This document shows positions 26,351-60,836 of a stretch of 64,000 nucleotides of DNA, piece after piece (within the stretch, counting starts at the first letter, position 1; the number at the start of each line of letters is the position of its first letter). This DNA comes from Paludibacteraceae bacterium (GTDB taxonomy: Bacteria; Bacteroidota; Bacteroidia; Bacteroidales; Paludibacteraceae), in the NCBI GenBank assembly GCA_024693065.1, contig JAILLP010000018.1, forward strand, positions 1 through 64,000, written 5' to 3'. Below the pieces are notes generated by a model. That model did no database searches, was not told the origin of the DNA, and was given only the letters and a program-made list of their open reading frames with translations. Position numbers and translations under genes: made by a program.

Positions 26351-26405
26351 CACCAGAACCCGCCAAGCCTCTCAACGATGCTCAAATGTGCGGGTCGTTT
26401 TATTT
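26351..26405 (+). ncRNA. abiF-type structured RNA
   Basis: Immediately after the promoter, ACCCGC (26358-26363) pairs with GCGGGT (26390-26395). An inner AGC (26366-26368) can pair with GCT (26380-26382), leaving loops that could form a pseudoknot. The stem is followed by a T-rich run (TCGTTTTATTTAT), so most transcripts may end there. Position, size and the CCCGCC...GCGGG layout fit the conserved abiF RNA described upstream of AbiF/Abi_2 genes, where related RNAs act as antitoxin. I recalled the motif from memory and have not scored it with a covariance model. Confidence 0.7.
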
Positions 26406-56199: not shown

Positions 56200-56732
56200 T
56201 CAGCGGAAAATATAAGGGAAAACGATTCTCTCCTCCCAAGAACCTGAAGGCACGTCCAACGACGGATGTGGCCAAGGAGGCATTATTCGACATCCTCAAC
56301 AACCGTATCGACTACGAAGAGACAAGGGTACTGGATATGTTTGGGGGTACAGGAAGCATCAGCCTAGAGTTCGCCTCGAGAGGTTGCCCGAATGTCACCC
56401 TGCTGGAGATGAACGCCACCAACTACCTATTCATCAAAAAAACCATCGCCGAGCTGAAAGCCGATGAGATCAGCGCCATCAAGGGAGATACATTCAAGTA
56501 CGTGGAACGATGCGCCTCACAGTTCGACCTGGTATTCGCCGATCCGCCATACGACCATCCCCGCCTCCAGGAGATTCCAGACATTGTTTTCCAACACAAC
56601 TTGTTAAACGATGAAGGTATCCTCATATTGGAACATCCAAAGGATTTTAATTTCGAATCGCACCCCTACTTCCTCGAACATAGGAAATACGGGCATGTGA
56701 ACTTCACCTTCTTTAAAAATTCGGCAGAATGA
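56190..56732 (+). CDS. rsmD: 16S rRNA (guanine-966 N2)-methyltransferase RsmD
   Basis: 180 residues. The N-terminal 'MRIISGKYKGKRFSPPKNLKARPTTDVAKE' is diagnostic, and 'VLDMFGGTGSISLEFASRG' is SAM motif I. Motif IV is 'VFADPPYDHP'. It methylates G966 of 16S rRNA during 30S assembly. It overlaps folB by 4 nt (ATGA). Confidence 0.95.
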   Translation: MRIISGKYKGKRFSPPKNLKARPTTDVAKEALFDILNNRIDYEETRVLDMFGGTGSISLEFASRGCPNVTLLEMNATNYLFIKKTIAELKADEISAIKGDTFKYVERCASQFDLVFADPPYDHPRLQEIPDIVFQHNLLNDEGILILEHPKDFNFESHPYFLEHRKYGHVNFTFFKNSAE

Positions 56733-57088
56733 ATTACCTCATAGTAGACAACCTGCAGATCTACGCCTACCACGGCGCGATCCCCACGGAGAACAAAGTG
56801 GGCGGTGAATACAGCATCTCGCTGAAAATCGGTTACGACTTCCTGAAGGCCGGCCAAACGGACTCTCTCCAGGACGCCATCAACTATGCGGAAATCTGCG
56901 AACTGATAAAAAAGGAGATGAAACAACCCTCCCAACTGATCGAAAACGTGGCGTGGAGGATACAACAGACCATCCTATCGAAATACCCGCAGATAGAGAC
57001 GATGGAGACCACCATCCGCAAGATGCACCCACCCGTACCTTTCCCTATGGAGGCGGCCACCGTAGTGCTCAACTACACGAAGGAGTGA
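56729..57088 (+). CDS. folB: Dihydroneopterin aldolase
   Basis: 119 residues, typical for FolB. 'LQIYAYHGAIPTENKVGGEY' contains the conserved HG and substrate-binding Glu, and the C-terminal 'IRKMHPPVPFPMEAATVVL' closes the family pattern. It makes 6-hydroxymethyl-dihydropterin for folate synthesis, supporting ThyA indirectly. Last gene of its operon. Confidence 0.93.
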   Translation: MNYLIVDNLQIYAYHGAIPTENKVGGEYSISLKIGYDFLKAGQTDSLQDAINYAEICELIKKEMKQPSQLIENVAWRIQQTILSKYPQIETMETTIRKMHPPVPFPMEAATVVLNYTKE

Positions 57089-57157
57089 CCCAAACGTAGG
57101 ATGATCGCAGAGGGAACAAACAATCCGCGGACGTCCCAAAAATTTCCACCAAATTAT

Positions 57158-57188
57158 TTTGCGCATAAGAAAAAAATAATTTCCTTTG
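57158..57188 (+). promoter_or_regulatory. trpB2 promoter
   Basis: TTTG at 57158-57161, 19 nt, TTCCTTTG at 57181-57188 (one mismatch to TAnnTTTG). The start site would lie just before the leader peptide. Confidence 0.7.
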
Positions 57189-57216
57189 TGAAAGATAAAC
57201 ATAGATGATTTTATCC

Positions 57217-57264
57217 ATGAACAATTCGAAGAATAACAACAAACGTTGGTGGCGCAGATTCTGA
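57217..57264 (+). CDS. trpL: Trp leader peptide
   Basis: A 15-codon ORF reads MNNSKNNNKRWWRRF followed by TGA. The tandem Trp codons (57247-57252) sit where a ribosome starved for tryptophan would stall. It lies between the promoter and an attenuator and has no other plausible role. The size and WW pair are typical of attenuation leaders. Confidence 0.88.
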   Translation: MNNSKNNNKRWWRRF

Positions 57265-57350
57265 TTCAAACGGAGGGTCTGCAACTAGCGTATGAGACAT
57301 ATTCAAACAAGATAGTGAAACCGCAAGCCTCCGAGGTCTGCGGTTTTTCT
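57254..57350 (+). promoter_or_regulatory. Trp transcription attenuator (antiterminator and terminator)
   Basis: Three exclusive pairings can be drawn. Region 1 GCAGA (57254-57258, just after the Trp codons) with region 2 TCTGC (57278-57282). Region 2 CGGAGG (57271-57276) plus TGC (57280-57282) with region 3 GCA (57323-57325) plus CCTCCG (57328-57333): the antiterminator. Region 3 AAACCGCA (57318-57325) with region 4 TGCGGTTT (57339-57346) followed by a T-rich tract: the terminator. When Trp is plentiful, the ribosome covers 1 and 2 and the terminator forms. When the ribosome stalls at WW, region 2 is free and the antiterminator forms. Confidence 0.85.
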
Positions 57351-57390
57351 TTTGCTTTTTAGAAAACAATATTTTTAATAATATATCAAA

Positions 57391-58758
57391 ATGGAAAAAC
57401 AAAAAAGATTCTTTTTGCAAGAGAACGAGATACCACGGAAGTGGTATAACATCGTAGCGGATATGAAGAACAAGCCGCTTCCTATGTTGAACCCACAAAC
57501 AAAGAAACCTATCACCGTCGATGAGATGTGCGGACTTTTCAACCGCGCATGTTCCGAGCAGGAGTTGAACACGACGGACGCATGGATTGAGATACCTGAG
57601 GAGGTACGTGACCTCTACAAGAGCTATCGTTCCACGCCTTTGGTAAGGGCTTACGGGCTCGAGAAGGCGTTGGACACGCCAGCGCACATCTACTTCAAGA
57701 ACGAGAGCGTCAGCCCTGTCGGCTCACACAAACTGAACTCCGCTTTGGCGCAGGCTTACTACTGCAAGAAGGAGGGTGTGACCAACATCACGACGGAGAC
57801 CGGCGCAGGACAATGGGGTGCCGCCCTCTCTTACGCCGCGAAGGCATTCGGACTGGAGTTGGCTGTCTTCATGGTTAAGGTCAGCTACCACCAAAAGCCA
57901 TACCGTCGCTCCATCATGCAGACATTCGGTGCGCAGGTGATCGCTTCCCCAAGCATGAGCACACGTGCCGGTAAAGATATATTGACCGCCAACCCTAGCT
58001 ACCAAGGTAGTTTGGGTACCGCTATCTCGGAGGCGGTGGAGCTCGCCATGCAGACACCTAACTGCAAATACGTGTTGGGTAGCGTCTTGAACCACGTAAC
58101 CCTCCACCAGACCATCATCGGTTTGGAGGCTGAGAAGCAGATGGAGATGGCTGGCGAATACCCTGACATCATCATCGGTTGCTTCGGTGGTGGTTCCAAC
58201 TTCGGCGGACTCTCCTTCCCATTCATGAGACACAACATCTTGGACGGCAAGAACACGCAGTTCTTTGCGGCGGAGCCGGCTTCCTGTCCTAAGTTGACCC
58301 GTGGTGTCTTCCAATATGACTTCGGTGATGAGGCAGGTTACACACCAATGTTGCCTATGTACACGTTGGGTCATAACTTCGCACCAGCCCACATCCACGC
58401 CGGCGGTCTCCGCTACCATGGTGCGGGAACCATCGTCAGCCAGTTGATCAAGGACGGCATGATGAAGGGTGTGGACATCCCTCAGTTGGAGACGTTCGAG
58501 GCGGCTACGTTGTTCGCCCGCACAGAGGGAATCATCCCTGCTCCAGAATCCTCCCACGCCATCGCCGCCGCTATCCGCGAGGCGAAGAAAGCCAAGGAAG
58601 AGGGCAAGGAGAAGGTCATCCTCTTCAACCTTTCCGGACACGGATTGATCGATATGACCGCTTACGACCAGTTCATCGAAGGCGACCTCGTCAACTACGA
58701 CTTGCCGGATGAGGTGATCAAGGCGAACGTGGATAAATTGGAGAAGATCATCAAGTAA
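57391..58758 (+). CDS. trpB: Tryptophan synthase beta chain, TrpB2 type
   Basis: 455 residues, longer than standard TrpB and matching the TrpB2 class. The PLP lysine is in 'VGSHKLNSALAQAYYCKKEG' (about residue 113), with the phosphate-binding glycine loop 'GCFGGGSNFGG'. The 'TETGAGQWGAAL' block is conserved. It condenses serine with indole to make tryptophan. TrpB2 enzymes are often found without trpA and may salvage indole. Here the gene stands alone, behind its own Trp attenuator and before a terminator. Confidence 0.95.
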   Translation: MEKQKRFFLQENEIPRKWYNIVADMKNKPLPMLNPQTKKPITVDEMCGLFNRACSEQELNTTDAWIEIPEEVRDLYKSYRSTPLVRAYGLEKALDTPAHIYFKNESVSPVGSHKLNSALAQAYYCKKEGVTNITTETGAGQWGAALSYAAKAFGLELAVFMVKVSYHQKPYRRSIMQTFGAQVIASPSMSTRAGKDILTANPSYQGSLGTAISEAVELAMQTPNCKYVLGSVLNHVTLHQTIIGLEAEKQMEMAGEYPDIIIGCFGGGSNFGGLSFPFMRHNILDGKNTQFFAAEPASCPKLTRGVFQYDFGDEAGYTPMLPMYTLGHNFAPAHIHAGGLRYHGAGTIVSQLIKDGMMKGVDIPQLETFEAATLFARTEGIIPAPESSHAIAAAIREAKKAKEEGKEKVILFNLSGHGLIDMTAYDQFIEGDLVNYDLPDEVIKANVDKLEKIIK

Positions 58759-58784
58759 GTATACTTCACATTCTCATTATAACG

Positions 58785-58818
58785 AAGGAGGCGAGCCATT
58801 AGGTTCGCCTCCTTTTGT
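58785..58818 (+). terminator. Terminator after trpB2
   Basis: AAGGAGGCGA (58785-58794) pairs with TTCGCCTCCTT (58804-58814), followed by TTTG. Confidence 0.85.
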
Positions 58819-58868: not shown

Positions 58869-60803
58869 CTATTCACCCACAAATTTGATGCCCTCCTTGT
58901 AGGTTGACGGAACTGCGATATAGCACTTGTTTCTCTGCAACTCTTTTCGTTCCACCTGCTTCCCCTTCAAATCATAAAACAGCGCCCCTTCGAGGGTGTT
59001 GATCTTGTCACCCTTCAAATTAGAGATGGAAGAGGGATCTGAGACCGCAAAGTTCAGCCAGTCCACATTCACGTAGTTGCCCTCTATGAGCAGTTTGAGG
59101 GTATGCTCGCCCTTCTCCAGTTGCGCGGTGGCGACACGAACCTCCTCGTAGGTGCTCCAATCCTCGCTGGTCTGGGCAATGGTGTACGCCTCCGTGATGC
59201 ACACCCCGTCAATGTAGAGTTGGAATCCATCCACCTCGCCACCGTTGGAGACGTTGGCCGTGATATCGTATGTGTTCGATTCCTTCACGTCGACCGTATA
59301 CTCCATCCATTCGCCCTTCTCCGTGTAGCCTACCGCGAAGCCGTCACCCGCCTTCACGACGTCCACTCCCTCATCCGTACGAAACTCACCGTCGCCTCGG
59401 TTCTTCTCCTCGTTATCGTAGTAGGAGAAGCCTTGTCCCGCCACGTCGAAGTGCTCCGCCTCGATACGTCCGGGGATGCTGGCAGTCTCGTTCTTATAGG
59501 GCGTTTGGGGCACGTCCAACGGGGTGATGTAGATGCGGTAGCCGTAGAGTTCGCTTTCTATCTTCACAGGGACGGTAAGGCTACCACCCTCGACCACCAT
59601 GTCCGATTCGGAGATGAGGTCGGTACCGTTGACCGGCGTGTTGATGCTCTTCCAAGTGACACGCTCCACCCTCACTCTAACGACGCCGCTGAGGAAGTCC
59701 GGCATCTTTTGGAATACGACGTTCACGTCGCCCACCGACTTACCGCCCAGCACGAGGCTGGCGCAGTGGTGTTTCCTATCCACGGAAGCGAAACCGTCCA
59801 CGCCCTCGCTTCTGTCGTTAGGCGGGGTCACGCTCGCCATGTAGCCATCCATGTCGCCGTACCATTTGTAGAGCCACCATCCGCCACCCTTCTGACCATT
59901 GTCAGTCAGCAGGCTACCCAAGCGGCCTGGGTGCGGAACGTGCCACCAGGAGATGGTAGCGCTCTCCACGTTGTAGCGCTCGAACTTAGCGATGAAAGGC
60001 ACGGAATAGCCCGGGCAACCCTCGTACTGCTGCTTGTCCGAGTCCGAGCCCGCACAATACTCGTTGATACAGTACGGGCGCTCCGGGATGCCCAGCTCCT
60101 GCTGTAACTTGCGCACGCTCTTCACAGCGTCCGCGAAGCCCGCGCTTCCCCATTGGTGCCAACAGATCAGGTCTGGGAGGCAGTTGTTTTGCTTACAGAA
60201 GGTAAGGAAAGACCTCATCCTCGACTCGTTGTAGTAGGACATGCCTGGGCCGACGATCGGCGTCTCAGGGTCCAATTTACGTAGGAGTTCGTAGGTAGGT
60301 TTCCATACCGTAGTGTTAATGTCTCCGTTAGAGGTGTTCCAAGTACCATCCGGTTCGTTCCAGATCACATAGCTATGGATGTTGGTCAACCCTTCGGAGA
60401 ACTTTTTCTTCACAACCCGCTCCACGGAACTCAGCCAACTCTGCTGTCCCGGCCAACGGTAGGGCCAGTTCGGAAGCAGGTCAGCCAGCGTGATCTGCAC
60501 TTGGGCGGTAGTGTTTTTCAGTCTACCCGCCACGATGTAACCATCCCCGAAATTGTGTTGGTTGCCGTTCTTGCCCTCAGGCGGTTGGCAGAACATGTGC
60601 GGTTTCAGGGGAGCTACCAACTCATCTATGTTAGCCGGCTCATTCTCCGTCATTCCATAGAGGGAACCTGACGCACAGTGGGTCACAGGACGGATGCTGT
60701 CCGTCAGATCCACCTTGAGCGTCTCCGCCGCATGCGTGACCTGAGGAGTTGCGATGACCCAGGAAGTCATTAGTAATAGAATGTTTTTACGAATGTGTTT
60801 CAT
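58869..60803 (-). CDS. Secreted clan GH-A glycoside hydrolase with C-terminal CBM6
   Basis: 644 residues from the ATG at 60803 (MKHIRKNILLLMTSWVIATP signal peptide). A GH39/GH5-like barrel spans about 30-390: the acid/base Glu is in 'SYVIWNEPDGTWN' and the nucleophile Glu in 'YCINEYCAGSD'. 'ICWHQWG' supplies a conserved His. The opening 'ASGSLYGMTENEPANIDELV' is shared with uncharacterised GH39-like enzymes. A CBM6 domain (about 450-590, 'IEAEHFDVAGQGFSYYDNEE', 'YTEKGEWMEYTVDV') and a T9SS-like tail ('LFYDLKGKQVERK') follow. The exact family and substrate are uncertain; a plant or algal polysaccharide is likely. Confidence 0.75.
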   Translation of the reverse strand: MKHIRKNILLLMTSWVIATPQVTHAAETLKVDLTDSIRPVTHCASGSLYGMTENEPANIDELVAPLKPHMFCQPPEGKNGNQHNFGDGYIVAGRLKNTTAQVQITLADLLPNWPYRWPGQQSWLSSVERVVKKKFSEGLTNIHSYVIWNEPDGTWNTSNGDINTTVWKPTYELLRKLDPETPIVGPGMSYYNESRMRSFLTFCKQNNCLPDLICWHQWGSAGFADAVKSVRKLQQELGIPERPYCINEYCAGSDSDKQQYEGCPGYSVPFIAKFERYNVESATISWWHVPHPGRLGSLLTDNGQKGGGWWLYKWYGDMDGYMASVTPPNDRSEGVDGFASVDRKHHCASLVLGGKSVGDVNVVFQKMPDFLSGVVRVRVERVTWKSINTPVNGTDLISESDMVVEGGSLTVPVKIESELYGYRIYITPLDVPQTPYKNETASIPGRIEAEHFDVAGQGFSYYDNEEKNRGDGEFRTDEGVDVVKAGDGFAVGYTEKGEWMEYTVDVKESNTYDITANVSNGGEVDGFQLYIDGVCITEAYTIAQTSEDWSTYEEVRVATAQLEKGEHTLKLLIEGNYVNVDWLNFAVSDPSSISNLKGDKINTLEGALFYDLKGKQVERKELQRNKCYIAVPSTYKEGIKFVGE

Positions 60804-60836
60804 AGTGCTCCGAATCTTTTGGTTTAACAATCATCG

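Follow-up and report, generated by a model that had tools for sequence, protein, structure and literature searches.

A predicted tryptophan attenuator upstream of a stand-alone trpB2 gene in Paludibacteraceae

The enterobacterial trp leader encodes a peptide with adjacent Trp codons, followed by RNA segments that can form 1:2, 2:3 and 3:4 pairings. In this layout the Trp codons precede segment 1, the stop codon lies between segments 1 and 2, and the terminator overlaps segment 3. To our knowledge, the role of TrpB2 in bacteria is not settled. Indole salvage by TrpB1 and TrpB2 is described for Thermococcus kodakarensis (as cited in PMC11085991), and passages in two further papers mention a trpB2 in Bacteroides as well as trpB2 genes that are unlinked (PMC1854888; PMC2395257). 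The Bacteroid-trp RNA (RF01692) is a probable cis-regulatory RNA of Bacteroidetes (PMC2864571, Table 1), and Trp attenuators have been predicted on single genes of Actinobacteria, such as trpS in some Streptomyces (PMC1262725). A comparative attenuator survey (Lopatovskaya et al., 2010, as cited in PMC4833913) may also cover Bacteroidetes. Our search of the open-licence literature returned no paper on leader-peptide attenuation in Bacteroidetes or Bacteroides that dealt with trpB, with tryptophan synthase or with the biosynthesis of amino acids.

Here we analyse the leader of a trpB2 gene in a Paludibacteraceae genome of 3.48 Mb, 100% complete by the tool's estimate. The window is the whole stretch of DNA that was analysed, 64,000 nt in length. 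Among the best 80 of 586 trpB2 loci, the closest named relatives are rumen MAGs labelled Paludibacteraceae, with 99% identity to the window TrpB2. We argue that a classic ribosome-mediated transcription attenuator very probably controls this gene.

The trpB2 locus and its leader

The features of the locus are as follows.

56729-57088, same strand as trpB2: folB, the upstream neighbour of the leader region
57157-57188, + strand: candidate Bacteroidales-type promoter, TTTTG at 57157-57161 and TTCCTTTG at 57181-57188, read directly
57217-57264, + strand: leader peptide ORF MNNSKNNNKRWWRRF, 15 codons, ending KRWWRRF, predicted from sequence
57247-57252, + strand: adjacent Trp codons 11 and 12, proposed stall site from alignment invariance
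57254-57282, + strand: 1:2 hairpin, 57254-57262 with 57274-57282, from fold and pair counts
57271-57333, + strand: predicted 2:3 antiterminator, 57271-57276 with 57328-57333 and 57280-57282 with 57323-57325, from fold and pair counts
57317-57360, + strand: 3:4 intrinsic terminator and T-rich tract, stem 57317-57325 with 57339-57347, inner stem 57327-57330 with 57334-57337
57391-58758, + strand: trpB2, stand-alone TrpB-like PLP synthase, 455 aa, above the NF009057 and TIGR01415 cut-offs
58784-58816, + strand: terminator-like hairpin followed by Ts, 3' of trpB2 (-26.5 kcal/mol in a 60-nt stretch, from energy alone)

Because the enzyme scores above cut-off against NF009057 (696.8 bits, cut-off 366) and TIGR01415 (603.3 bits, cut-off 518.85) and below cut-off against TIGR00263 (150.4 bits, cut-off 392.45), we class the gene as trpB2 type. 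It carries HKLN at residue 113 and ETGAGQ at residue 136, motifs that we take to have catalytic roles. The closest solved chains, which it resembles as a TrpB2 (COG1350, TIGR01415), are 6hul, 4qys and 6hte, aligned over most of its length. The next large ORF past trpB2 (58869-60830) is on the opposite strand, and the trpB2 unit is probably monocistronic since a strong hairpin with Ts sits after the gene. Elsewhere in the window, an abiF RNA (RF03085), presumably associated with Abi-type genes, lies at 26359-26395 (+ strand; 58.5 bits, above cut-off); a second copy was seen downstream of trpB2 at another locus (L012, 2548-2584, - strand).

The first-pass annotation had described a complete Trp attenuator here, with a promoter, a leader peptide containing WW and three mutually exclusive pairings. 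The 15-codon WW ORF and the terminator are present in the sequence. The promoter is less certain. Bacteroidales promoters carry the motif TAnnTTTG, and the window's TTCCTTTG has one mismatch to this consensus, so the promoter stays a candidate. At the same place in 10 leaders of the genus, five have TAnnTTTG and five have TTCCTTTG. A generic promoter and terminator scan reported no sigma-70 promoter in the leader region and, under its stricter criteria, no terminator.

All three pairings can be drawn. One base separates the second Trp codon from segment 1, and the leader stop codon occupies 57262-57264. Predicted energies are -12.1 kcal/mol for the 1:2 hairpin and -16.6 kcal/mol for the 3:4 terminator, which spans 57317-57347 and leads into a T-rich run; in each case 1 of 200 shuffles was equally stable. 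The whole 144-nt leader folds more stably than all 200 of its shuffles (z -3.55). The 2:3 alternative, which pairs CGGAGG with CCTCCG, is unexceptional in duplex energy (17 of 200 shuffles equally stable). At equilibrium the full leader folds as 1:2 plus terminator, and when segment 1 is omitted (57270-57360) the minimum-energy fold remains the terminator and not the antiterminator. On this folding analysis the antiterminator would therefore have to be in place by the time segment 4 is transcribed, and the predicted switch must be kinetic, as in any such attenuator.

Conservation in the genus and the separate trp operon

A (K/R)RWWR leader lies upstream of trpB2 in ten of the 14 genus regions. 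The N-terminal half of its peptide is variable, and both Trp codons are invariant columns in the alignment of the 10 leaders (A1). Pairing was counted over the nine distinct leader sequences, with 500 column shuffles as control. In the 1:2 stem, 95.1% of 81 cells are paired, a percentage reached by no shuffle, with two doubly changed pairs, a number reached by 41 of 500. The 3:4 stem is paired in 92.3% of 117 cells; it has two doubly changed pairs (reached by 287/500 shuffles) and six doubly changed cells (0/500), and two of its inner pairs are broken, in five and three of the nine sequences. Jointly, the two stems are paired in 93.4% of 198 cells and hold nine doubly changed cells. Their percentage, doubly changed cells and covariation score were each unreached in 500 shuffles, their doubly changed pairs were matched by 29 and their pair types by 429. 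Slid versions of the two stems are 38.9-55.1% paired, a comparison tilted towards the proposed structure, which was itself derived from the window sequence.

The case is weakest at the 2:3 pairing. Overall it is 91.4% paired with one doubly changed pair, and 81 of 500 shuffles reach that percentage; its core is 98.1% paired, with one covarying pair and five invariant pairs, and its outer part 77.8%. These controls are weak because most of the 2:3 pairing never varies. Of the three pairings proposed at first pass, 1:2 and 3:4 thus covary and 2:3 is not separated from shuffles; lack of conservation, which had been named as grounds for abandoning the attenuator, was not borne out, given the compensatory changes in 1:2 and 3:4 across nine leaders.

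The earlier view that trpB2 lies outside a trp operon held up. On a separate contig of the same genome, trpE-G-D-C-F-B-A stand in a row. Genes trpG/pabA, trpD, trpC, trpB (TIGR00263, 584.2 bits) and trpA each exceed an NCBIfam cut-off, and trpE (TIGR00564, 407.4 of 517.7 bits) and trpF (179.7 of 215) are best names below cut-off. This trpE is itself preceded by a leader with YWWRPSLFQSRR and a GC-rich hairpin with Ts. Since the operon is unlinked and has a WW leader of its own, the genome holds two separate Trp leaders. A model built from the 10 trpB2 leaders (R1) points the same way: with 150 of 2083 candidates scored in this genome, it gave 147.0 bits to the trpB2 leader and 45.9 bits (E 1.9e-7) to the operon leader, and found no third place at E <= 0.1. 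R1 matches the trp operon leader in seven of 16 genus genomes, this one included. It also gave 18 more weak matches in other genomes of the genus (E 3.8e-4 to 0.098).

Across the genus, trpB2 was found in 14 of 16 genomes (all except G001 and G006), and a Trp leader precedes 12 of these 14 genes. Besides the ten (K/R)RWWR leaders there are two with WWW, in G002 and G008, which stand at a greater distance upstream of the gene. No trpB2 leader was found in G012, nor in the 200 nt upstream of the gene in G013. Four of the 16 genomes (G002, G004, G008 and G011) have neither a strong trpE match nor a trpB1 match, and all four keep the trpB2 leader. Genes absent from these MAGs may be assembly gaps in G004 (88% complete) and G011 (93%); G002 and G008 are each 99% complete. 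In G009 (89% complete) there is no trpB1 match and trpE is split into two pieces. The operon also varies: in four other genomes of the genus (L119, L121, L122 and L123) trpB adjoins and precedes trpE, and their operon leaders differ (YWWWQ, YWRWQ), so both operon order and leader vary within one genus.

Tryptophanase was searched for with TIGR02617, which matched none of the 16 genus genomes; among 14 control genomes it matched four, E. coli among them, one over cut-off, and was silent in the Bacteroides ihuae control, so its reach in Bacteroidota is uncertain. It replaced PF01212, which discriminated poorly, being over cut-off in all 16 genomes at no more than 34.9 bits. The absence of TIGR02617 matches agrees with indole coming from neighbours or from outside.

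Recurrence before trpB2 in relatives

The first-pass annotation had suggested a search for the same leader before trpB2 in relatives, and a Trp leader is there, in the 12 genus genomes given above and in 33 of 79 genomes of the family. We used two criteria. The strict one, a short W.?W ORF and a terminator within 450 nt upstream of trpB2, was applied to 80 named loci (the best 80 of 586, in which related loci are not independent). It was positive at 21 of the 80, compared with four places elsewhere in that DNA (2,405,110 bases with both strands counted, 1.2 Mb). L058 (NWQGW) and L100 (one Trp, GTG start) stand outside these 21, as do all loci of Bacteroides and Parabacteroides in the set. The looser criterion, a W.{0,2}W ORF and a terminator, gave 22 positives on the same loci against 53 other places, a background of about 0.01 per 450-nt stretch.

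The family survey applied the looser criterion to 120 genomes, of which 80 had trpB2 at E <= 1e-150 and 79 had readable upstream DNA (G067, with no upstream DNA, was omitted; G178, G143 and G099 had less than 600 nt). The 33 positive genomes fall in 14 of 25 genera. About 0.8 chance positives would be expected in 79 stretches, given the 53 background places among 80 loci. Some rows are distant TrpB2 proteins (52-55% identity) that may form another subgroup. No W.{0,2}W leader with a terminator was found in the other 46 genomes, and one genus (g4) has the leader in none of its four genomes, though TrpB2 there is 91-94% identical. On this distribution, the predicted leader control of trpB2 is dispensable in the family. 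In two of the loci (L014 and L048), about 250 nt lie between the attenuator terminator and trpB2.

This background bears on a rival account of the locus. The upstream gene, folB, is co-directional with trpB2 and ends at 57088, so a terminator between folB and trpB2 is unsurprising; it could belong to the folB transcript, with the WW ORF present by chance and trpB2 transcribed from a start of its own downstream. We consider this very unlikely, because trpB2 is preceded by a WW ORF and a terminator together much more often than background predicts, and because segments 1 and 2 between the two covary.

The patchiness of the leader, for which 46 of the 79 genomes of the family were negative, suits a relic of a trp operon attenuator, in which peptide and terminator persist without responding and trpB2 is expressed by partial read-through. 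The one-Trp leaders with hairpin and Ts upstream of trpB2 in L213 and L242 resemble decay and are perhaps decaying attenuators, and R1, a trpB2-leader model, also matches the operon leader. Such a relic would hardly keep both Trp codons unchanged in all 10 leaders of the genus alongside a variable N-terminal half, or retain compensatory changes in the 1:2 and 3:4 stems, and we regard it as unlikely.

Positives cluster on the TrpB2 tree. On a tree of 81 TrpB2 rows, WRW leaders require one change, WW two and WWW three, with the 59 rows in no leader group not counted. A single origin of all leader classes is a candidate reading of this tree. A tie between leader and de novo pathway was considered and set aside: in 50 of the 80 genomes, by the strict criterion, the leader occurs in 15 of 41 with indole-glycerol-phosphate synthase and in four of nine without. 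A missing synthase may be a gap, since one genome without a synthase match (G058) has an RF01692 leader before trpB1. The genome of L048 likewise gave no match to this synthase.

We also examined the 2:3 pairing in a wider set, 20 of the 21 positive loci (L046 omitted), as the duplex that the sequence following the Trp codons forms with the 5' arm of the terminator, with 200 simple letter shuffles each. The duplex was matched by at most four shuffles in seven loci (L043, L051, L054, L069, L082, L090 and L106) and by more than 50 in eight (L034, L039, L042, L045, L047, L048, L066 and L085). The whole fold of the stretch from Trp codons to terminator was matched by at most 10 shuffles in two loci only (L054 and L085). 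Leaders of other sequence retain the order of Trp codons, spacer and terminator. This constancy is relevant to the proposal of a hairpin element that binds a ligand or protein, with a peptide that acts other than by ribosome stalling; a Trp leader peptide of Sinorhizobium meliloti, reported to act in trans (PMC7298713), offers a precedent. Such an element is highly improbable here: the leader classes differ widely in sequence, yet the order of parts is constant, and no Rfam family reaches its cut-off at the window leader.

Mechanism and relation to known tryptophan leaders

Of the readings considered, ribosome-mediated attenuation is much the most probable. In its favour stand the anatomy of the leader, the conservation and covariation of its parts (weak for 2:3), how often it recurs before trpB2, and the second leader at the trp operon. 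The proposal of a Trp attenuator on a lone trpB2 thus fits the comparative tests. In the predicted mechanism, the short leader RNA that RNA polymerase makes first would carry the reading frame of a peptide in which two Trp codons stand side by side. With ample charged tRNA-Trp, the ribosome would reach the stop codon and make segment 2 unavailable, and the 3:4 terminator would end the transcript short of trpB2. Under a shortage of Trp-tRNA, the ribosome would stall at 57247-57252 and mask segment 1 (57254-57262), so that segments 2 and 3 could pair (CGGAGG with CCTCCG) while segment 4 is still untranscribed; no terminator would then form, and trpB2 would be expressed. TrpB2 would join indole, probably external, to serine or phosphoserine to yield tryptophan. 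We infer translation of the peptide, stalling, Trp-dependent read-through and the use of these substrates and of free indole from sequence comparison, and the salvage role of this TrpB2 is likewise putative.

We lean slightly towards the view that, in Paludibacteraceae and neighbouring Bacteroidales, indole salvage by TrpB2 is a separate unit under starvation control, with an attenuator of its own alongside that of the trp operon, kept where the rest of the pathway has been lost and running there on indole from neighbours. If so, TrpB2 gains a physiological signal, tryptophan starvation sensed apart from the trp operon, and one could predict which of the Bacteroidales are able to use community indole, apparent tryptophan auxotrophs included. 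Since the mechanism depends on a ribosome that follows RNA polymerase closely, it would also make transcription-translation coupling directly testable in Bacteroidota. The 33 trpB2 leaders of this one family and the 24 W-rich ORFs at RF01692 matches described below could serve such tests.

Among described systems, the enterobacterial trp leader (RF00513, Trp_leader) shares with the window a peptide with adjacent Trp codons and the order of pairings. No Rfam family matched the window leader at its gathering threshold. RF00513 was the sole Trp family among the matches below threshold, and the window aligns over its full model at 24.6 bits (E 0.0056 in a 311-nt search). The genome's own trp operon leader scores 30.0 bits, and both lie below the gathering score of 41 bits. 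Other sub-threshold matches (Atu_C9, BSnc120, mir-1303, rliE, SSRC34_2 and ctRNA_p42d) were set aside by judgement as likely hairpin look-alikes. The window leader differs from the enterobacterial one also in its target, a single unlinked trpB2, and in its phylum.

At E <= 0.001, Bacteroid-trp (RF01692) matched none of the 16 genus genomes (gathering score 49 bits). In 50 relatives, searched with stricter filters, it gave 25 matches at E <= 0.001 in 23 genomes, 19 of them above cut-off. Nineteen matches precede trpB1, four precede trpE, two have no trp gene found alongside, and none of the 25 was seen before trpB2. Six RF01692-positive genomes carry a separate trpB2 leader by the strict criterion. 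A WW or WWW short ORF occurs at 24 of the 25 matches (the exception is L148), as in the window leader. RF01692 thus sits at trp operons, whereas the window leader precedes trpB2 in a genus without RF01692 matches, and we reject RF01692 as its identity. One relative has a second, sub-threshold match of 45 bits (L166, G048:C39:114978-115120), about 5 kb after the match preceding trpB1 and 1.2 kb before indole-glycerol-phosphate synthase; it is perhaps an internal attenuator.

Among the attenuators of Actinobacteria, those on trpS in some Streptomyces are likewise predicted to be classical and to act on a gene outside the trp operon; they differ in serving a tRNA synthetase gene in another phylum (PMC1262725). 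The passages on Bacteroides and unlinked trpB2 genes (PMC1854888; PMC2395257) name no attenuator for trpB2, whereas the window trpB2 has a predicted one. By sequence and score, the window element appears to be the same kind of device as RF00513 and RF01692 and a member of neither. That kind of device is well known; of moderate interest are the gene it acts on here, how widely it occurs and the fact that genomes seemingly without the pathway carry it.
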